Shown here: positions 2,528 through 63,957 of the stretch, in pieces
Layout: every line of letters begins with the position of its first letter
Numbering within the stretch: position 1 is the stretch's first letter
Assembly (NCBI GenBank): GCA_961205875.1
Contig: OY540812.1
Coordinates: forward strand, 24,623,098 to 24,687,097
Source of the DNA: Sialis fuliginosa
Taxonomy: Eukaryota; Arthropoda; Insecta; Megaloptera; Sialidae
DNA: 64,000 bases
Reading direction: 5' to 3'
Position numbers and translations under genes: made by a program
The notes under the pieces: generated by a model
The model's database searches: none
Told to the model about the DNA's origin: nothing
What the model saw: only the letters and a program-made list of their open reading frames with translations

Positions 2528-3288
2528 TGCAACGAGCGGTTTGTATTTTTTTCAAATTGACTTGATGTAAGTTGGGTAGTAAAAATTCAATACTGCAACA
2601 AATAGTTTGTAATTTTTCGAAACTAAATTGGTATTAGTTGGGTTGAAAAATTACGATATATGGTTGTAAAATTACTAAATGTATTTAATCTAATTTGTTT
2701 AGTAAAATTCCGACTATTGTATTGTAATATTACTAAACAATTTTTTAATAAAGGTTAGTAATATTGCAACAAATAGTTTGTAATTTTTCTAAACTAAATT
2801 GGTATAAATTGTCTAGTATTATTACAATAAATTTTTGTAAAATTACTAAAATTATTAGAAACATTTGGCTTAGTAAAATTACGAATAATGTACAGTAATA
2901 TTACTAAACATAAGTCTAGTAAATGATTAGTAATTTTGCGACAGATGATTTGTAATAGTTTAAAATTGAGTTGTGATAAATTGTATAGTAAATTTACAAA
3001 ACTGTGTTCCATAATTCCGAAAATTGTGGTGCGTAAAAACTTCCTACACATTTTTGTAAAATTACTAAAATTATTAGAAACATTTGGCTTAGTAAAATTA
3101 CGAATAATGTACAGTAATATTACTAAACATAAGTCTAGTAAATGATTAGTAATTTTGCGACAGATGATTTGTAATAGTTTAAAATTGAGTTGTGATAAAT
3201 TGTATAGTAAATTTACAAAACTGTGTTCCATAATTCCGAAAATTGTGGTGCGTAAAAACTTCCTACACATTTTTGTAAAATTACTAAA
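2528..3288. repeat. Degenerate repeat array with a perfect 219-bp tandem duplication
   Basis: A motif with the core TTTGTAATTTTTC followed by an AAATTGG-type tail recurs near 2528, 2597, 2767, 2938 and 3157. Spacing is about 170 bp in the middle copies. From 2831 the sequence becomes an exact tandem duplication of period 219 bp (2831-3049 and 3050-3268), followed by 20 more bases of a third copy. No difference is visible between the two 219-bp copies. Because 219 is a multiple of three, a minus-strand frame reads through both copies as a duplicated 73-residue segment, but this is a by-product and not evidence of a gene. Confidence 0.85.
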
Positions 3289-13774: not shown

Positions 13775-14780
13775 ATTGAACATATCTGATTTTTATTGAT
13801 ACTTCTACTTTTTAATCAATAGTGTGACATTATTTAGGGACCAGAAATTGTAACTGAATCATTCCATGGTGACGGGTGGGACGTTATAGACACATTTTTG
13901 ACAAACATTCAAATATTTAAAGATGTAAATAAAGCACATAATACAAACAGTACTTATGATAGCATTTCTTAATATATTTTTTAAGATAAAGTAAAGTGAA
14001 AAACGTGAATATCTGCCCTAACCTTGTCAAATTCATAGATTTGTATATGTAACAGGTGAGACACGAATTACCCTCTTTTCTTTAAATACTTGTACTTGAC
14101 GTTGAAATTTAGATCAAATAGGTCATCTAGAGCCCTAATTTTATTTTAGTACTCTACTTGAATAATGTCGCTAATTGTTTTCTAAAGAGGTGAATGAAAA
14201 ATCAATACAAATATTTTTGGGAAGCTTAAAATATTGTGACGGGTAGGACGAGTAAAAAATTGCACAAGAAATACACGAATTTAAACTTACTTTTTTTATA
14301 ATTTTTATGTTATTTGTTACTTTTGTTAAGTTAGCAAATTATAGCTCTTATAGTGTATGGTTAAATTCAACTCACTGATGTTTTCGTGTGACACAAGAAA
14401 CAGATATTTTCAAATGACAGTAAATTTAAAACTAACATCAATGGTAAAATTTTCGGTCGCGTGTTCGATTGTAACGAAAAAAAAAGAGAAGCCATTCGGG
14501 TTTTGAATACGGAACGCCTGGATGAAAGTCCTGAGTATTGACCGCTCGTCGATATGTACCATCGTTTCAATGCAGCAGTTTAATACTTATACAGATTTCT
14601 CGCAAACGGGGACGAGTTGGCACTCAAGTCTAGCGGGGATTAATTAGTACCTGTCTCAACTATAACCACGCGGAGTCTCTACTCTACCCGTAACTCGATG
14701 CACTTCTGTGACTGTCCCCTTGTGAGTAAGTACGTATTCATTATTGAATATCGTTAAGCGGGTGGAGTTAAAGGAGACTT
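13775..14780. other. AT-rich spacer with a short direct repeat
   Basis: A GTGACGGGTGGGACG motif at about 13870 recurs as GTGACGGGTAGGACG at about 14236. Nothing else could be assigned. A 67-codon minus-strand frame at 14367-14570 has no recognisable family. Confidence 0.35.
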
Positions 14781-15612
14781 ACAAGGGGAAGCAACAGCAC
14801 GGTTAATGAGAATTTGAATGAGCTTGTGGTATGTCAAACTAGAGCAAAAATAAAAAGACACGTGTCCAACAATTTGATCTCATAGGCCTTAATTACAAAG
14901 ATAATTAACTTTGAAAATTTGTGTATTCAATATAACCGTGTATTATGTTCGCTCGAAATATGTGTGTTGGCCCTACGGTCAACGCGCTGGCGTCTCGCCT
15001 GGTTTTAAGATTTTGATTTTAATTTTTATTTACAATTATTTTTTTGTACACATTACCTCTCCCACTTGCGTAAAAATCGATAAATTAGACATAAATAAAA
15101 CATATATTATTATTGACAATGAAAATATTGATATATACGCCAGTACATAATTATTAATTTGTTTTAAAGTAAATTTAATTTATAATTTATTATTGACACA
15201 ACTCATTAGTTTTTAATTAATAAATTGAAAAGTTTTAATAAAAAACAAACATGAAAGAAACCACAAACATCTATTGTCAATAATAATATATGTTTTATTT
15301 ATGTCTAATTTATCGATTTTTACGCAAGTGGGAGAGGTAATGTGTACAAAAAAATAATTGTAAATTAAAATTAAAATCAAAATCTTAAAACCAGGCGAGA
15401 CGCCAGCGCGTTGACCGTAGGGCCAACACACATATTTCGAGCGAACATAATACACGGTTATATTGAATACACAAATTTTCAAAGTTAATTATCTTTGTAA
15501 TTAAGGCCTATGAGATCAAATTGTTGGACACGTGTCTTTTTATTTTTGCTCTAGTTTGACATACCACAAGCTCATTCAAATTCTCATTAACCGTGCTGTT
15601 GCTTCCCCTTGT
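14781..15612. mobile_element. Near-perfect 340-bp-arm foldback, possible tRNA-like head
   Basis: The arms 14781-15120 and 15273-15612 are nearly identical inverted copies around a 152-bp loop. The outer ends read ACAAGGGGAAGCAACAGC and its complement. Because the arms match so well, each strand shows the same 70-residue frame; this is a mirror effect and not a gene family. Inside each arm, GGTCAACGCGCTGGCGTCTC resembles the A-box region of a tRNA-derived SINE, but no matching B box or tRNA fold was found. The words AAAAAGACACGTGTCC also occur at 50645 in another palindrome. Confidence 0.8.
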
Positions 15613-16480
15613 TAGTTAAGGGGGCAGACCCAATTAGAATTTTGAAAAAAAACATTTTTTTTGCATTTTCTCAAAGAAGAATATTTCAAAAGTATTTTCT
15701 GAAAATTTCAGACAAATATCCTGTCCATAGACGATTCAGTGTAAGTTCTAAAATAAATTTTTTATCTGCATGCAAATCGTACTCAAAACTTTAAACGCGT
15801 TTCTCTCGAAACCATGTTTTCGAAGTCGGTTATCACTGTAACTTGGGAACGGTTTTGCCGATTGGTTTGAAATTTTTCTCACTTATTCTATACATAATTG
15901 TCCTCCGGATGGACGAAGGATTTTTTTTGACGATTATTATTTTTTTTATAGCCGAAAATGCGAGTGAAATTTTAGTCGAATAAAGAACTTTGACTTTCAA
16001 TATCCGCCATTTTGTGAAAATTCAAAAAAAATTAAATTTTTTTGGTATATCCGGAGTATTATGTCATTAGCTAATGATCCCTTTTGTTTTTTTCAGTTGG
16101 CAGCACTGTGCTTTTTCATTGAACTTCTTATAAATATAAATATATTTGTTTTCCAATAAAAACAAAATTTATTTGTTATACGCTAAGAAACCATCGCTCC
16201 TAGCGCCGCCACGTGGAATAAATAAACACTTTTGGGTTTCTGTCAAACGTAGAGAAATTCAAACTGTCATAAAATTATTATTAAAAAGTCGATATAATTT
16301 ATTGTGATTAATCAATATAACGAATATTTTTGTGACTCTCACGAATTTGTATTCCTTCGAGTAATGGATAAAAATAAAAGTAGCCGCATTTGTTGTGTAG
16401 ATATTATTTAACACAAAAAGTCGTTTTAATCGAGTTTATATTTACGCATTATGAGTTCTTTTCTACTTATTACATAATGC
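15613..16480. other. AT-rich spacer
   Basis: No gene recognised. The words TTCTCAAAGAAGAATATTTC and ATTGGTTTGAAATTTTTCTC resemble interiors of decayed elements, without a partner arm in the window. Confidence 0.35.
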
Positions 16481-35098: not shown

Positions 35099-36052
35099 TT
35101 AGTTAATAGTCATGTGGATTATTGTTTAATGGATTTTTAAACATAAAAGCAACCTTTGTGATTTAGTTTCAATTTATGGGAAAAATTAGTTTGACGTCCA
35201 ATATATTGTGAACAATATTGACTCTTTTAACAATTCTACGGCCCGCAGATTGGCTTAGCGTTGATTTAATGACCCGCGTTCATATTTCAATTTGACACCA
35301 CTGCATTCGTTGAAATTCATATTATAAAAAATATATGTTAAAATATTTTACTGGCCCGGTAAAAATAGAAATTTTTATTTAAATAATTTATAGTTTTATT
35401 GTTTGAAGATAGATACTCGTGAATAATACATAAACAAATATGTCAAGTGTATTCCTCTTTTAAATTCCAAGAAAACATCTAAATGTTTGTTAATTTTTTT
35501 GCAATTATCTAAGAAACGGTGGTTCGGACAAAAAAAAATTATATAAACTCAAATTTTAGACAATAAAATTATAAATAGAACAGATCAAATACATACTTGC
35601 TGTAAACGTTATGGTTTGTGCGCAATCTATACGAGTACATGGGGTAAAATCTAACACACTGCAAGATATTCGTTTTTTTTTTTTGCAAATAACTTTTTGT
35701 AGAAATTACACATAACTGTGAATTTGTTGAGTGCAACATATTTTGCCAGAAACAGTCAGCAGTATTATTTTCAAATAAATTGTAAAACTTTTTTTTTTAT
35801 TCGAAAAAAATCATATGCAATAATAACTAATGTAAGATTCAGAAATTTTAATTGTAAACCGACATAATGTTCTCTTCATTAGATAACCGAAAAATCAAAC
35901 CTTCGCCAACATTTAGGGATATTTTTGGGCATTTAAGAGAGCAAACTACGAGATAGAACTTTTTGGGTATTGGTTTCTGCAGTATTCACGAGTAAATACA
36001 AAAACCAACGACAAAAACGTCGAGGGATTAATGAGATAAAAAATGTCTGGAA
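35099..36052. other. AT-rich spacer
   Basis: No gene or RNA gene recognised. Confidence 0.4.
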
Positions 36053-36298
36053 CTACACGGATAGAAAAGTTAACTTGGGCCAAGAAATCCTTGTTTTTTA
36101 TATAACGAAAACAATATTTTCTTAATTTAAGAATATACTCTTAATCCAAAAAATTATTGTTTCTCTTTAAAGAAATATTGTTGAACGAAAACAATAATAT
36201 ACTTGGATTAAGAATACATTCTTATATTAAGAAAATATTGTTTTCGTTATATACAAAACAAGATTTTCTTGGTCCAAGTCACTTTTCTACCTGTGTAG
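36053..36298. mobile_element. Palindromic MITE, CTACAC termini, intact copy
   Basis: Nearly every base pairs across the centre. CTACACGGATAGAAAAGTTA matches the complement of the right end around CACTTTTCTACCTGTGTAG, and AATATTTTCTTAATTTAAG and its complement lie inside. The centre is near 36176. This serves as the empty-site reference for the interrupted copy at 53522-54564. Confidence 0.85.
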
Positions 36299-36305
36299 TG
36301 GGCTC

Positions 36306-36341
36306 CTGATGAGGACTTATTGTGAAGTCGAAATACGTATC
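36306..36341 (+). ncRNA. Hammerhead-ribozyme-like core, candidate A
   Basis: CTGATGA (36306-36312), one base, stem II GACTT/AAGTC (36314-36318 with 36325-36329), GAAA (36330-36333), stem III ATAC/GTAT (36333-36336 with 36337-36340), then C at 36341 as the cleavage-site residue. All conserved core residues of a hammerhead are present. Stem III has no loop, as in dimeric hammerheads of retrozymes and Penelope-like elements. A convincing stem I is not visible, so activity is unproven. It directly abuts the MITE that ends at 36298 and is followed by about 45 bp shared with candidate B. Confidence 0.45.
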
Positions 36342-36390
36342 AAGTGACATTGTTTTCTTGTGGTTAAGGTGTATTTAGTTTAAGTGACTA

Positions 36391-39735: not shown

Positions 39736-41731
39736 GAGTCATTCCATGTCAAATCAACACAGGGTATAAACCTCACCATCTCAGATTTTCATGAAATTTG
39801 ACACAATTATACTATTCATTTAGACTTGGAAAAATATCAAATTTTATTGAGATATGTCTACTGGTTTTGAAATTACAGCTATGTAAAGTTTTCAAAAATT
39901 GGTCAAAAAACCGTGATGGAAAATTTTTGAAATGCTCTGGAAGCTGATCTAATTGACTTAGAGAACTGGGCGGGGTGTCATTTTACAGCATATTTCACAC
40001 CGATTCCAATGATATATAACACAATATGGGTTAAGAAAAAAAATGTTTTCAAAATCAAAGTCAAAATTTTGATTTTTAATTTCACAACAAGTACGGTTTC
40101 AAAAATTTTCAAATTAATACCAAACATAGTCATTATAGTTGTGAATCACCTGGAAAAATATAAATGTGGGATGACAATGGATTCTATGTTAAAATAATTT
40201 AAGAGTGAAGCTCGAATTTAAAAATCGCTCTGTATTTAGACTGTGAAAAATTCAACAATGCTAAAATGTATACTTGCATGAACATGAACACTAATATGAA
40301 GTAACAATACAGTACTAAATTCAAAATGGGCTATTTTTTGCCACAGAAGCATGGCCCTCGCATTACCACGGGCCCCCCAACTGGAATTGTTACGAAAAAA
40401 ATTTTACGTTTTCAAAACTTTTCAAATTAATACCAAGAATAGTCATTATAGTTGTGAATCACCTGGCAAAATATAAATGTGGGATGATAATGGGTTCAAT
40501 GATAAAATAATTTAAGACTGAAGCTCGAATTTAAAAATCACTGTGTATACAGGAAATATTTATGCTATTATAAAATTTTAGGCTTAAATTGGTAAATTTT
40601 ACACATAACATAGTAGCTAGTTCAATGTAATAAAAAGCTGTTTTGTTATATTTGAAGTACCAGTAATCCAAGTTTCAAAATTCCAATTTGTTAATGTCAA
40701 ACTAATACAATGACATGTAAGCTGTATGTGGTAACCTTATGGGATCGACTTTAGTTTGAATTAAAAATAAATAAATAAAACTATTAGCTTTCATCATTTT
40801 TGAAGTAAGTAAGCTTGTTGCAAATAAATCAACAATACTACAAAATATCTTCAGTTATAATTAAAAATATATACAAAAGTAAATCCTGTGACTGGGAGAA
40901 TTAATGTTATTCTTGAAAATGAATTATGAATTTATAAATTAAAATTTTGAATTGAAAGGCCTAAAAAATAAACTTTGATATTATTTATTTTTTCTATTTA
41001 AAGACCTTAAAAAAGGTCGTTCAAATAAACCTGTATGGTCGAAAAAAAATTTCTTAAGGGGCTCGCAACAATTCCAGTTGGGGGGCCCGTGGTAATGCAA
41101 GGGCCATGCTTCTGTGGCAAAAAATAGCCCATTTTGAATTTAGTAATGTATTGTTACTTCATATTAGTGTTCATGTTCATGCAAGTATACATTTTAGCAT
41201 TGTTGAATTTTTCACAGTCTAAATACAGAGCGATTTTTAAATTCGAGCTTCACTCTTAAATTATTTTAACATAGAATCCATTGTCATCCCACATTTATAT
41301 TTTTCCAGGTGATTCACAACTATAATGACTATGTTTGGTATTAATTTGAAAATTTTTGAAACCGTACTTGTTGTGAAATTAAAAATCAAAATTTTGACTT
41401 TGATTTTGAAAACATTTTTTTTCTTAACCCATATTGTGTTGTATATCATTGGAATCGGTGTGAAATATGCTGTAAAATGACACCCCGCCCAGTTCTCTAA
41501 GTCAATTAGATCAGCTTCCAGAGCATTTCAAAAATTTTCCATCACGGTTTTTTGACCAATTTTTGAAAACTTTACATAGCTGTAATTTAAAAACCAGTAG
41601 ACATATCTCAATAAAATTTGATATTTTTCCAAGTCTAAATGAATAGTACAATTGTACCAAATTTCATGAAAATCTGAGTTGGTGAGGTAAATTTTTCATT
41701 AAAATTGTGTTGATTTGACATGGAATGACTC
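39736..41731. mobile_element. 2.0-kb near-perfect foldback, GAGTCATTCCATGTCAAATC termini
   Basis: Arms of about 660 bp (39736-40395 and 41065-41731) match almost base for base, including a 62-codon frame that appears identically on both strands. Ends are GAGTCATTCCATGTCAAATC and its complement. A 3-bp GTA flanks both sides (39733-39735 and 41732-41734), which could be a target duplication or chance. The spacer holds a direct, diverged copy of an arm segment (about 40398-40550). The high arm identity suggests recent origin or conversion between arms. Confidence 0.85.
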
Positions 41732-47253: not shown

Positions 47254-47541
47254 TTAAGTAAAGTTATAAAATTACTATTTACTTGAGAATAACAATAACT
47301 TCTTATTAAAGGTTTTCGGTCAATAATGTACTAAAATATATGTTATATGTTTGAAAATAATGCCATTTCAGAACAGACACACCAAATTCCAAATTAGGAG
47401 TGTTCTTTACTACCTTAGAAGTGCTTCGGTTCCGATTATATCTGTTGTAACTTGTAAGAGTCTAATAATGGACATTGCTGTAAAGAAATTGGATGATTTT
47501 TCATAAATATACACCTTAACCACAATAAAACAATGTCACTC

Positions 47542-47577
47542 GACACGTGTTTCAACTTCACAAGAAGTTCTCATCAG
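47542..47577 (-). ncRNA. Hammerhead-ribozyme-like core, candidate B
   Basis: On the minus strand: CTGATGA (47577-47571), one base, stem II AACTT/AAGTT (47569-47565 with 47558-47554; can extend by one more C-G pair), GAAA (47553-47550), stem III ACAC/GTGT (47550-47547 with 47546-47543), then C at 47542. Compared with candidate A, stem II and stem III each differ by a compensating pair, so pairing is kept. Downstream, about 45 bp (GTGACATTGTTTT then TTGTGGTTAAGGTGTAT) is shared with candidate A. Stem I is not convincing. Confidence 0.45.
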
Positions 47578-47649
47578 ACTGTCTGGAACTGTTAGGCTTT
47601 ATTATTGTTAAGATGTACATTTTTATTTGAAGTGTTTTTTTTTTTGCTT

Positions 47650-53521: not shown

Positions 53522-54564
53522 GTACAGGTAGAAAAGTGACTTAGGCCAAGAAAATCTTTTTTTATATAAGGTAGTGCCACCAGTCTTGGCAATATAATGA
53601 ATTAGAAATATGTATTGTTATTTTATTACTACCATTTCTGAATATTAATCTATATACATTTAACTGTCTTACAGCGTGCTTTGATGACAATCGGTCAATA
53701 AGCGTCAAAATGGTGGATATTTAAACTAATTATTAGTGTAATTTATTTATTAATTATTATATTATCATAGAAACTGTTTTACATTGTTTCAAATTTTTTT
53801 TTACATTGTTTCATTTTGTAATCATTAGCAAGTGTCTATCACTGCGTGCCCATTACTGGTTTTACTTTATCCATTACCGGAGAAAAACATAAACAAAATA
53901 AAAGGCTATAATTTAACAAACAAACTATATTTGCGGACTTTAGTAATTAAATATTTTAAATAAAGATTTACTTGTTTTATTAGGTAACACGAGTTCATGA
54001 GAGTTACAAAAAAGAAGCCCGTCAATCACAAAAACAGTAAACCTTGCTCTTATAGCGGCCATAACTAGTGCCAGTACCTTATTGACAATTTGTAGAAAAT
54101 AACTTTAAAAATATTTATATATAAACTTAATTTTGCGGGAGTTCCTTAGTCGTGCTCATTACTGGTTTTACCTTTGCCATTACTGTAGAAAAAACACGAA
54201 CAAAATAAAAGGCTATAATCTAAAAAAAGAACTATATTTGCGAACTTTGGTAATTAAATTGATTAAATAAAGAGTTACTTGTTTTATTAGTAACATGAGT
54301 TCATGATAATTACAAAAACCACGAAAATTTGCTCTTATAGCGGCCATAACTGGTGCCTTTACCTTATATAAAGATAACAACATTTTCTTAATACAAGAAT
54401 ATATTCTTAATCCAAGTATATTATTGTTTTCGTCGGACAATATTGCTTGAAAGAGAAACAATGTTATGGATTAAGAGTATATTCCTATATTAAGAAAATA
54501 TTATTTTCGTTATATATAAAACAAAAATGTCTTGGTTCAAGTCAACTTTTCTACCCGTGTAGTG
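53522..54564. mobile_element. CTACAC-family palindromic MITE split by an insertion
   Basis: The left end (ACAGGTAGAAAAGTGACTTA) and the right end (TTTTCTACCCGTGTAGTG) match the intact MITE at 36053-36298. About 800 bp of GGTACTGG-family sequence separates the first 45 bp from the rest. The intact copy has TTATATAA at the corresponding point and supplies the empty-site sequence. Confidence 0.8.
53570..54363 (+). mobile_element. GGTACTGG-family insertion, one and a half copies
   Basis: A full copy runs from GGTAGTGCCACCAGTCTTGG to CCAGTACC at 54078. After a short linker a second, 5'-truncated copy (about 54133-54363) ends GGTGCCTTTACC. TTATATAA flanks the whole (53562-53569 and 54364-54371). 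Because TTATATAA is itself a palindrome and other copies keep AA before GGTA, the true duplication could be 8 bp or only ATAT. Confidence 0.75.
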
Positions 54565-56601: not shown

Positions 56602-56790
56602 AGCTGTTACCAGCGACTTTGTCCGCGTGGAATTTGTATTTTTTCAACGAATCATTTTTCTGGGATACAAAGCCTATCCCCTTCCTCAGGATGCAAACTA
56701 ACTCCCTACCAAATTTTACCAAAATCGGTTCAGCGGTTTAGCCGTGAAAAAGTAACAAACAGACAGTTACTTTCGCATTTTTATACCTAT
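56602..56790 (-). repeat. Arthropod-wide repeat, minus-strand copy
   Basis: The complement reads GCGAAAGTAACTGTCTG, CACGGCTAAACCGCTGAACC, GATTTTGGTAAAATTTGGTA and ends with ATTCCACGCGGACAAAGTCG. The same order of blocks occurs at 63745-63957, and a related head at 44135. Confidence 0.7.
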
Positions 56791-59232: not shown

Positions 59233-59250
59233 ATTAAAAAGGGGTTGAGC

Positions 59251-59486
59251 ACAACTCATACCAAGACAACTAATACCGAGACAAATCATACCGGGACAAC
59301 TCATACCAAGACAACTCATACCAGGAGACAACTCATACCACGACAGCTAATACCAGTAGACAACTCATACCAAGGGACAACTCATACCAGGACAACTCAT
59401 ACCAGTGGACAACTCATACCGCGACAACTCATACCACGACAAGTCATACCAGGGGACAACTCATACCAGCGGACAACTCATACCAC
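59251..59486 (+). repeat. 15-unit minisatellite, left arm
   Basis: Units of 15 or 17 bp with core ACAACTCATACC and a 3- or 5-base variable spacer (such as AAG, GAG, AGGAG, AGTAG). Fifteen units counted. The frames of 62 and 96 codons here are repeat artefacts. Confidence 0.85.
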
Positions 59487-59644
59487 CGATATTTTTTTAT
59501 TTTGTAAGATTAAGGTTTTTACGGAAAAAAAATGATATTTACGTATTAAGTAAGATTATAGGCCCGTATTGTTCAAATAACAAATTCAAATGAACTATAT
59601 AGAAACCTTGTTTATAATTTAATCAATTAAAAAACAATTGTACA

Positions 59645-60400
59645 GATGCGTATTAAGTGATATTTGAGGCCCGTGTATTAAATTAATTTATAAATTCACA
59701 ACTCGTCCCCTGTCACAGATGAAGGGTTGTATTAGGTCTCATTCGATCCGGCGGGAAAAATACTTCGGAATACCAGGGGTGTGGGGGGCAAAACTACCCT
59801 CTAACTAGCACAGCAGACGAGATATTTTCAATTTTCTGTAATGAATACAGCAAAACAGAAAAATTCAATCTTTACAATAAATACAAAATAGAAACATTAG
59901 ATAGTATCATTGAATTCATAAAAAATCCAGGCACGTATTAAGTGATATTTTAGGCCCGTATTGTTAAAATAACAAATAGACATATACTAAATAGAAACCT
60001 TGTTTATAATTTAATCAATTAAAAAACAATTGTACAGATGCGTATTAAGTGATATTTGAGGCCCGTGTATTAAATTAATTTATAAATTCACAACTCGTCC
60101 CCTGTCACAGATGGAGGGTTGTATTTGGTCTCATTCGATCCGGCGGGAAAAATACTTCGGGATACCAGGGGTGTGGGGGGCAAAACTACTCTCTATCTAG
60201 CACAGGAGTCGAGATTTTTACTATTTTCTGTAATGAAAAAGTAGAAAAATAAGAGAAAAATTCAATATTTACGATAAATACAGTATAGAAACATATGATA
60301 TTATTATTAAATTTAATAAAATGAAGACACGTATTAAGTGATATTTTAGGCCCATATTGTTAAAATAACAAATTCACATATACTATATAAAAACCATTTT
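59645..60400. repeat. 391-bp internal repeats, left arm (about two units)
   Basis: Units start near 59645 and 60037, with the marker ACAACTCGTCCCCTGTCACA at 59698 and 60090. Each contains the GC-rich block ATTCGATCCGGCGGGAAAAA and a GGGGTGTGGGGGGCAAAAC block. Confidence 0.85.
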
Positions 60401-60411
60401 TTTAAATTTAT

Positions 60412-61580
60412 CAAATTATAAACAAGGTTTCTGTATAGTGTATGTGAATTTGTTATTTTAACACTACGGGCTTAAAATATCACTTAATACGTATCTAGAT
60501 TTTTACATTTTATTAAATTTAATCATAATATCATGTTTCCATGCTGTATTTATTGTAAATATTGAATTTTTCTGTTTCGCTACTTATGTAGTATTCATTA
60601 CAGAAAATCGTAAATATCTCGGCTCTGGTGCGAGTTAGAGGGTAGTTTTGCCCCCCATACCCCTAGAATCCTGTAGTATTTTTCCCGCCGGATCGAATGA
60701 GACCAAATACAACCCTTCATCTGTGGCAGGGGACGAGTTGTGAATTTATAAATTATTTAAATACACGGGCCTCAAATATCACTCAATACGCTTCAATTTT
60801 TTTAAATTGATTAAATTATAAACAAGGTTGCTATTTAGTATATGTCTATTTGTTATTTTAACAATACGGGCCTAAAATATCACTTAATACGTGCCTGGAC
60901 TTTTTATGAAATTCAATAATAATAATATCTTATGTTTCTATTTTGTATTTATTGTAAAGATTGAATTTTTCTGTTTTGCTGTATTCATTACAGAAAATCG
61001 AAAATATCTTGACTCCTGTGCTAGATAGAGGGTAGTTTTGCCCCCCACACCCCTGGTATTCCGAAGTATTTTTCCCGCCGGATCGAATGAGACCTAATAC
61101 AACCCTTCATCTGTGACAGGGGACGAGTTGTGAATTTATAAATTAATTTAATACACGGGCCTCAAATATCACTTAATACGCATCTGTACAATTGTTTTTT
61201 AATTGATTAAATTATAAACAAGGTTTCTATTTAGTATATGTCTATTTGTTATTTTAACAATACGGGCCTAAAATATCACTTAATACGTGCCTGGACTTTT
61301 TATGAATTCAATGATAATATCTAATGTTTCTATTTTGTATTTATTGTAAAGATTGAATTTTTCTGTTTTGCTGTATTCATTACAGAAAATTGAAAATATC
61401 TCGTCTCCTGTGCTAGTTAGAGGGTAGTTTTGCCCCCCACACCCCTGGTATTCCGAAGTATTTTTCCCGCCGGATCGAATGAGACCTAATACAACCCTTC
61501 ATCTGTGACAGGGGACGAGTTGTGAATTTATAAATTAATTTAATACACGGGCCTCAAATATCACTTAATACGCATCTGTA
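60412..61580. repeat. 391-bp internal repeats, right arm (three units)
   Basis: The complement of the same marker lies near 60718, 61109 and 61500, spacing 391 bp. The unit nearest the centre is the most diverged from the others. Confidence 0.85.
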
Positions 61581-61734
61581 CAATTGTTTTTTAATTGATT
61601 AAATTATAAACAAGGTTTCTATATAGTTCATTTGAATTTGTTATTTGAACAATACGGGCCTATAATCTTACTTAATACGTAAATATCATTTTTTTCCCGT
61701 AAAAACCTTAATCTTACAAAATAAAAAAATATCG

Positions 61735-61970
61735 GTGGTATGAGTTGTCCGCTGGTATGAGTTGTCCCCTGGTATGACTTGTCGTGGTATGAGTTGTCGC
61801 GGTATGAGTTGTCCACTGGTATGAGTTGTCCTGGTATGAGTTGTCCCTTGGTATGAGTTGTCTACTGGTATTAGCTGTCGTGGTATGAGTTGTCTCCTGG
61901 TATGAGTTGTCTTGGTATGAGTTGTCCCGGTATGATTTGTCTCGGTATTAGTTGTCTTGGTATGAGTTGT
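61735..61970 (-). repeat. 15-unit minisatellite, right arm
   Basis: Mirror copy of 59251-59486 with the same unit order and the same spacer series; I found no spacer difference. Confidence 0.85.
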
Positions 61971-61988
61971 GCTCAACCCATTAAAAAG

Positions 61989-63744: not shown

Positions 63745-63957
63745 AACATTTATACGAATATTATAAAAGCGAAAATAACTGTTTGTATGTCTGCTGTTTG
63801 TTACCTTTTCACGGCAAAACCGCAGAACCGAACTTGAAAAAAAAGAGAGATAGCTTGCATTCTGAGGAACGGCATAGGCTACTTTGTATACCGGAAAACT
63901 TATTAGAAGAAAAATATACCTATATAAATTCCACGCGGACGAAGTCGGGAAAAATAT
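63745..63957 (+). repeat. Arthropod-wide repeat, plus-strand copy
   Basis: AAAAGCGAAAATAACTGTTT, CACGGCAAAACCGCAGAACC and ATTCCACGCGGACGAAGTCG occur in the same order as at 56602-56790 (minus). The interior is diverged. It ends close to the window edge. Confidence 0.65.

Follow-up and report, generated by a model that had tools for sequence, protein, structure and literature searches.

Two hammerhead-like loci

The window, that is, the whole 64,000-nucleotide stretch of DNA that was analysed, contains two hammerhead-like loci: locus 1 on the plus strand and locus 2 on the minus strand. Direct reading of the sequence bears out the initial annotation, which had described a hammerhead core at locus 1 and the same core at a second, minus-strand locus: both loci have CTGATGA, a 5 bp stem II, GAAA, and a loopless 4 bp stem III, followed by the C that precedes the predicted cleavage point (position 36341 at locus 1, position 47542 at locus 2). 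Both loci also have an extra G between CTGATGA and the 5 bp stem II, which was absent from that annotation. The features of the two loci are the following:

36306..36341, plus strand: hammerhead-like core of locus 1 (CTGATGA, extra G, stem II GACTT/AAGTC, GAAA, stem III ATAC/GTAT, C17 at 36341)
36300..36305, plus strand: surviving 5' strand of stem I at locus 1, GGGCTC; the first pair is C-A (C-G in most family copies)
36342..36345, plus strand: 3' strand of stem I at locus 1, AAGT (GAGT in the family), directly after the predicted cleavage site
36301..36390, plus strand: right arm of the locus 1 insertion, ending without a tail (family positions 17-109, 91% identity)
36044..36053, plus strand: element sequence TGTCTGGAAC upstream of the locus 1 hammerhead, interrupted by a MITE, as compared with family copies
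36052..36299, no strand assigned: MITE-like palindromic repeat inserted between TGTCTGGAAC and GGGCTC (further copy at 54364-54564, partial copy at 53524-53569)
35983..36021, minus strand: weak remnant of the left inverted arm of locus 1 (score reached by 7 of 500 shuffles and by 4% of random window stretches)
47542..47577, minus strand: hammerhead-like core of locus 2 (stem II AACTT/AAGTT, stem III ACAC/GTGT)
47505..47577, minus strand: right arm at locus 2 (family positions 22-94, 97% identity), which lacks the stem I 5' strand
47580..47622, plus strand: left inverted arm of locus 2, without the hammerhead core (score reached by 5 of 500 shuffles and by 0.6% of random stretches)

The two loci are similar over 69 nt (36306-36374 and 47577-47509), beginning at CTGATGA, with 7 mismatches and no gap (~90% alike). 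With a relaxed hammerhead descriptor (0-1 extra nt, stems II and III of at least 3 bp, A15.1-U16.1, H17), loci 1 and 2 are the only matches in the 64 kb window; 400 dinucleotide shuffles contain a mean of 0.20 cores, and of 0.0175 cores with a stem II of at least 5 bp and a stem III of at least 4 bp. Because the two loci are homologous, the descriptor match counts as one event. At locus 1, the MITE is 248 nt in length and lies just upstream of GGGCTC. A comparison with family copies shows that what is left of the inverted arm at locus 2 lies almost immediately next to CTGATGA. A search for target duplications gave none at either locus.

A dispersed family and its parent element

The search of the host genome covered 392 Mb in 20 contigs, with the window in contig C4. 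Genome-wide, the core pattern has 926 matches and its reversed control has 0; a 91-nt query returned 1174 first-look candidates (at least 51 matches, from 40 scored), and a query with the upstream piece returned 346 candidates (at least 44 matches, from 40 scored). When thirty copies are placed side by side, the hammerhead side faces the interior of the insertion, and the outer side ends near family position 104-106 or 138-139. In most copies, GGCTC upstream of CTGATGA pairs with GAGT after the cleavage site to give stem I (GCTC/GAGT). This pairing explains why the initial annotation could not draw stem I at either locus: the stem I of the family has been lost at locus 2, and its first pair is broken at locus 1.

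The longer copies have an open reading frame that ends ~50 nt before the hammerhead; in L028 and L040 the frame encodes 328 aa and ends 51 nt before CTGATGA. Direct reading of the L028 frame, which contains GIYKINCLNCDKSYIG, gives the motif GIY-10-YIG with CxxC between, and the best Pfam match of the frame is GIY-YIG (PF01541; 18.2 bits, E 0.003), below the cut-off of 22.6. A sequence search of the frame against solved structures returned nothing relevant. No reverse transcriptase domain was seen in ten longer copies, as is accounted for by the 5' truncation of all ten, on the side on which that domain would lie.

The genomic copies also decide how the two loci relate to each other. The loci are 11.27 kb from each other, in facing orientation, and the sequences outside both ends have an 11-mer in common (0.18% of random 40-nt pairs), as if the 69-nt inverted pair were the terminal inverted repeats of one 11.3 kb transposon; this reading, to which we assign a vanishingly small probability, is ruled out by the genomic copies, since the 11-mer belongs to the family sequence and is found upstream of the core in the copies examined, each locus has its own inverted partner arm, and hundreds of copies lie elsewhere in the genome. 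We conclude that loci 1 and 2 are separate insertions, not the ends of one 11 kb element.

An animal retrozyme, that is, a non-autonomous tandem unit of ~170-400 nt that spreads as circular RNA, is a further candidate: the motif is a type I hammerhead with a short stem III, and type I motifs are described for animal retrozymes in the available part of PMC7229834. A retrozyme is nevertheless very unlikely, because the copies examined are dispersed, inverted head to head, and tailed, because the longer ones are joined to an open reading frame with a GIY-YIG motif, and because there is no tandem array at loci 1 and 2. Correspondingly, the ~80 bp repeat for which the initial annotation had proposed monomer and dimer assays is one arm of an inverted insertion, not a retrozyme monomer. 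We conclude that loci 1 and 2 are, with high probability, the damaged remains of old insertions of a terminal repeat, which carries a minimal type I hammerhead and belongs to a Penelope-like element of the EN+ type.

The hammerhead motif of the family

The core nucleotides, A15.1-U16.1, and the NUH cleavage site of a hammerhead are present, with one extra purine beside stem II, which is unusual for a hammerhead; the three helices, including stem I, are present in family copies but not at loci 1 and 2. For the intact copies L026 and L040, the type I hammerhead of Rfam (RF00163) is the best of 4227 families, with 17.7 bits against a cut-off of 34, and the alignment covers model positions 4-42 of 45. 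The core nucleotides, stem I, and the loopless stem III align with RF00163, whereas the short stem I and the extra purine at stem II differ from it. In the Rfam alignment of family copies, the extra G is placed at 10.1, where it faces C, and the purine that follows is left in an unaligned insert. The check with a hammerhead covariance model that the initial annotation had proposed thus has a divided outcome: intact copies have RF00163 as best family, at a sub-threshold score, and the window loci have no match, the scan of the window giving no family at gathering score and no hammerhead near locus 1 or locus 2 up to an E value of 10.

In a predicted co-fold, two 46-nt family copies form a double hammerhead with all 8 stem I pairs, 10 stem II pairs, and 8 stem III pairs, whereas, in the same 46-nt test, locus 1 is predicted to form none of these pairs and locus 2 to fold without stem I. 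The energy of the 46-nt dimer is ordinary (58 of 300 shuffles are as stable), and the three stems form in 0 of 300 shuffled dimers, as is expected of shuffles. When 65 nt of context are included, the prediction prefers another dimer over the double hammerhead; in single-strand folds, stem II forms and the whole hammerhead does not; the folding energy of the 69-mers of the two loci is not unusual; and the predicted 139-nt fold lacks an AC-rich hairpin that is visible by eye.

The self-cutting motif looks real in the parent family. The motif is broken in both window copies, and, with stem I lost at locus 2 and mismatched at locus 1, both loci are probably dead, that is, inactive. The initial annotation had likened the motif to the minimal hammerheads of Penelope-like elements, and this likeness is supported by the open reading frame with a GIY-YIG motif, the tailed inverted repeats, the best match in Rfam, and the co-fold.

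Covariation in stems II and III

The two loci differ from each other in one pair of stem II and one pair of stem III, and the initial annotation had stated that both differences preserve pairing and had taken this compensation as a signature of selection on RNA structure. Relative to the family sequence, locus 2 differs at 2 of 69 positions, both of them partners of one pair, and locus 1 has five changes, two of them in one pair. In a simulation with seven random substitutions, two or more compensated pairs arise at a frequency of 3.4e-4, a small chance when this pattern is considered alone, which makes the two-locus pattern worth noticing and an older compensated lineage possible.

For counts of family copies, arms with the same surroundings were merged (193 arms giving 176), and 126 of the merged arms cover the hammerhead. 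Across the 13 stem pairs of these 126 arms there are 49 single changes, of which 21 keep a wobble or standard pair and 28 break the pair, and there is one double change, that of locus 1. At the two pairs named in the initial annotation, the 126 arms have 20 single changes (8 that keep a wobble, 12 that break the pair) and, again, only the double change of locus 1. A count by eye over the ~100 core-pattern matches that were listed gives single changes in ~15 cases for the stem II pair and in ~8 for the stem III pair, and double changes in none. The stem II double change is seen at locus 2 only, which, having lost its stem I strand, stands outside the 126-arm count. About half of the loci behind the 126 arms were chosen by a pattern that leaves stem I, the first two pairs of stem II, and the second pair of stem III free; the pattern fixes the other pairs, and their invariance is therefore uninformative.

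The statement that both differences preserve pairing holds in the register of the initial annotation and not in that of Rfam, in which the stem II change gives a G-U wobble beside a changed unpaired purine. With the extra G at 10.1 in the Rfam alignment, the register of stem II, and hence the 'compensated' pair, is ambiguous.

These results bear on two explanations of the paired changes. According to the first, the loci come from source elements with compensated hammerheads, and the covariation is true and reflects selection on RNA structure; the changes at locus 2, confined to one pair, the compensated pair among the five changes of locus 1, and the rarity of such patterns in the simulation are in its favour. 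We consider it quite unlikely, given the 28 pair-breaking changes and the single double change in the 126 arms, the lack of an A-T stem II double among the ~100 matches listed (by eye), and the Rfam register, in which the stem II change is no compensation. According to the second, quasi-palindrome correction, in which template switching between the arms of a small inverted repeat during replication copies one arm onto its partner, produced paired changes without RNA function. Both changed pairs do lie within short perfect inverted repeats (AACTTC/GAAGTT and ATACGTAT), but the sample of 126 arms contains one double only, and we regard this explanation, too, as unlikely.

The claimed signature of selection is thus not upheld by the family: many genomic copies carry uncompensated changes, which the initial annotation had itself named as evidence against its reading. 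Because the copies are largely dead, the covariation test addresses the claimed signature and not activity; dead copies are not expected to show selection. Covariation between two loci can mislead where the copies are dead retroelement ends.

Anatomy of the insertions

The 101 stretches examined comprise 33 with one arm inside the stretch, 1 duplicate, and 67 unique two-armed insertions; L041-L050 (of which eight overlap L040 or L051-L056, with L047 and L048 left out as well) and the window were excluded from these counts and from the arm-variant counts below. Sixty stretches were taken in order from the core-pattern list, up to 28.1 Mb of contig C1 and minus L035 and L057, and their cores are biased towards intact ones, the pattern fixing all but eight positions.

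All 67 two-armed insertions are head to head. In 54 of the 67, one arm ends at family position 130-139 and has a tail (~34 nt), and the other arm ends at 98-118 and has no tail. Two tails are found in 0 of 67 insertions and two short ends in 1 of 67 (L117); the 12 of 67 with an arm that ends elsewhere have a tailed partner arm in 8 cases and a short partner arm in 4. The tailed end is fixed, at 138-139, and the untailed ends are clustered, mostly at 104-106.

Direct repeats of 9-15 nt, read as target duplications, flank 50 of the 67 two-armed insertions and 46 of the 54 that combine a tailed with an untailed arm. A length of 12 nt is the most frequent (24 cases), and A+T makes up 79% of the repeats. 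As a control, the longest match was taken between random pairs of slightly longer stretches; it stays within 7 nt in 95% of the pairs and within 9 nt in 99%.

The two arms of the same insertion have 40 variants in common and 226 unshared (52 pairs, with one insertion included twice, as L036 and L092), as compared with 7.9 +/- 3.2 variants in common, and a maximum of 22 in 500, for re-paired arms; L076 and L098 supply 16 of the 40. The variants in common indicate either that one RNA was the source of both arms or that one arm derives from the other. Simple fold-back copying as the origin of the inverted arm is rejected: it predicts a tail on both arms, and this is seen in 0 of 67 insertions.

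Cleavage of the templates by the ribozyme would be expected to concentrate cDNA ends at G1.1. Of the 176 unique arms, only 2 start there, a frequency like that of several other positions, and the 176 arms show no pile-up of cDNA ends at the cleavage site. This agrees with the report of uncut RNA as the main template in vitro (PMC11167929). At family positions 21-23, 9 of 176 arms, including that of locus 2, start at C3 of the core, seemingly more than at neighbouring positions, an excess that is confounded by the search pattern.

Other repeats in and beyond the window

The MITE in the locus 1 element belongs to a MITE-like family with the ends ACTACACnGG ... GTGTAGT, and sub-threshold Rfam miRNA-precursor matches at locus 1 fall on this MITE. 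Elsewhere in the window, an inverted repeat at 59239-61982 has 999-nt arms that are 99% complementary and contains 392-nt tandem units and a GGTATGAGTTGTC minisatellite; two further long inverted repeats, at 39770-41688 and 14777-15616, have arms of 626 and 344 nt and are 99% complementary; and a tandem duplication with a period of 219 and 100% matches lies at 2831-3288. Similar sequences at 56630-56689 (minus strand) and 63862-63931 (plus strand), CTGAGGAA..ATAGGCT.., fit a loose hammerhead pattern, fail the descriptor with stems, and are probably another dispersed repeat. A tRNA scan found none, and a Pfam search with ten open reading frames between and around loci 1 and 2 found nothing above cut-off.

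Beyond the window, a stretch of contig C10 (L058, 3223000-3232900, with more matches to ~3253576) has five matches to the upstream piece at a spacing of ~7.37 kb and contains an integrase zinc-binding domain along with a piece of the Penelope-like open reading frame and the hammerhead end (88% identity); the region is probably a composite tandem array. Beyond this genome, viral contigs gave 0 matches to four patterns and prokaryote genomes gave 0 matches to one pattern. Two looser patterns gave nine matches in the viral and prokaryote collections (L001-L009), which we rejected as relatives after inspecting their 80-nt flanks by eye; one of the viral contigs has at ~890-919 a sequence, CTGATGAGGCT...AGCCGAAAC, with a 4 bp stem II, that is hammerhead-like by eye (L003).

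Discussion

The results settle the origin of the hammerhead-like sequences of the window: they are most probably ends of Penelope-like elements, of which the genome holds many hundreds of copies. According to the available part of PMC6155905, hammerhead motifs, mostly of the minimal kind, occur in every Penelope-like sequence available; the Sialis family resembles the published minimal Penelope-like hammerheads, as described in the available parts of PMC6155905 and PMC7229834, in having a minimal type I motif in its terminal repeats.

Two published elements are informative about the anatomy. For the Penelope of Adineta vaga, the available part of PMC3846280 describes an inverted pLTR that is 37 bp shorter than the direct ones; one inverted pLTR may also have a 31 bp tail, the target is duplicated over 8-10 bp, and the head-to-head junctions are palindromic. 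The same source proposes self-priming for the inverted ends and calls for further experiments. As far as this part of the source goes, the Sialis family is like the A. vaga element in its open reading frame, in which the GIY-YIG match is sub-threshold, its shorter inverted partner repeat, its one-sided tail, its target duplications, and its head-to-head junctions, and is unlike it in its ~12-nt duplications, in the many hundreds of short copies that give the one-of-each count of 54 of 67, and in its hammerhead, which this part of the source does not mention for A. vaga. For Poseidon PAc of Anolis carolinensis (PMC11167929), reverse transcription starts internally at two sites, with the tail between them; both target strands are cleaved and extended, the targets are A+T-rich, and an AC-rich hairpin is present; the hammerhead is protein-assisted and, in vitro, is dispensable for insertion, with uncut RNA as the main template. 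The Sialis family is like PAc in having a hammerhead near putative internal start sites, an AC-rich hairpin (here seen by eye), a tail, and A+T-rich targets, and probably also in the cleavage and extension of both target strands. In contrast to PAc, for which the start site shows no strand difference in vitro, here the two ends of an insertion nearly always differ. The individual parts of the anatomy are thus already known for Penelope, and what is added is the count, a near-strict rule of one tailed and one untailed end; such a rule as a count did not turn up in those parts of the literature that the search covered.

These observations suggest a scheme for insertion. The element would nick A+T-rich DNA on both strands, ~12 nt apart, and from each nick reverse transcription would start inside the RNA, downstream of the hammerhead. 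The start of one cDNA would be at the end of the tail, that of the other ~34 nt before it. With RNA of the same source as template, both cDNAs would run back through the hammerhead and be joined head to head. Cleavage of the parent RNA by the hammerhead, between C17 and G1.1, may take place upon pairing of two copies, as in tandem or dimeric transcripts, or with the help of a protein of the element in folding. Tentatively, then, Penelope insertion may be a two-primer reaction with a division of labour, in which the tail site is used once and the site ~34 nt upstream is used once, almost never the same site twice, on RNA of the same source and with head-to-head joining; we hold this to be possible, at somewhat less than even probability.

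The presence of one tailed and one untailed end per insertion bears on the origin of inverted ends, and with its many hundreds of short, two-armed copies the family is useful as a record of Penelope integration. If the proposed scheme is true, this genome would preserve, in its many short copies, a natural record of the division-of-labour rule.
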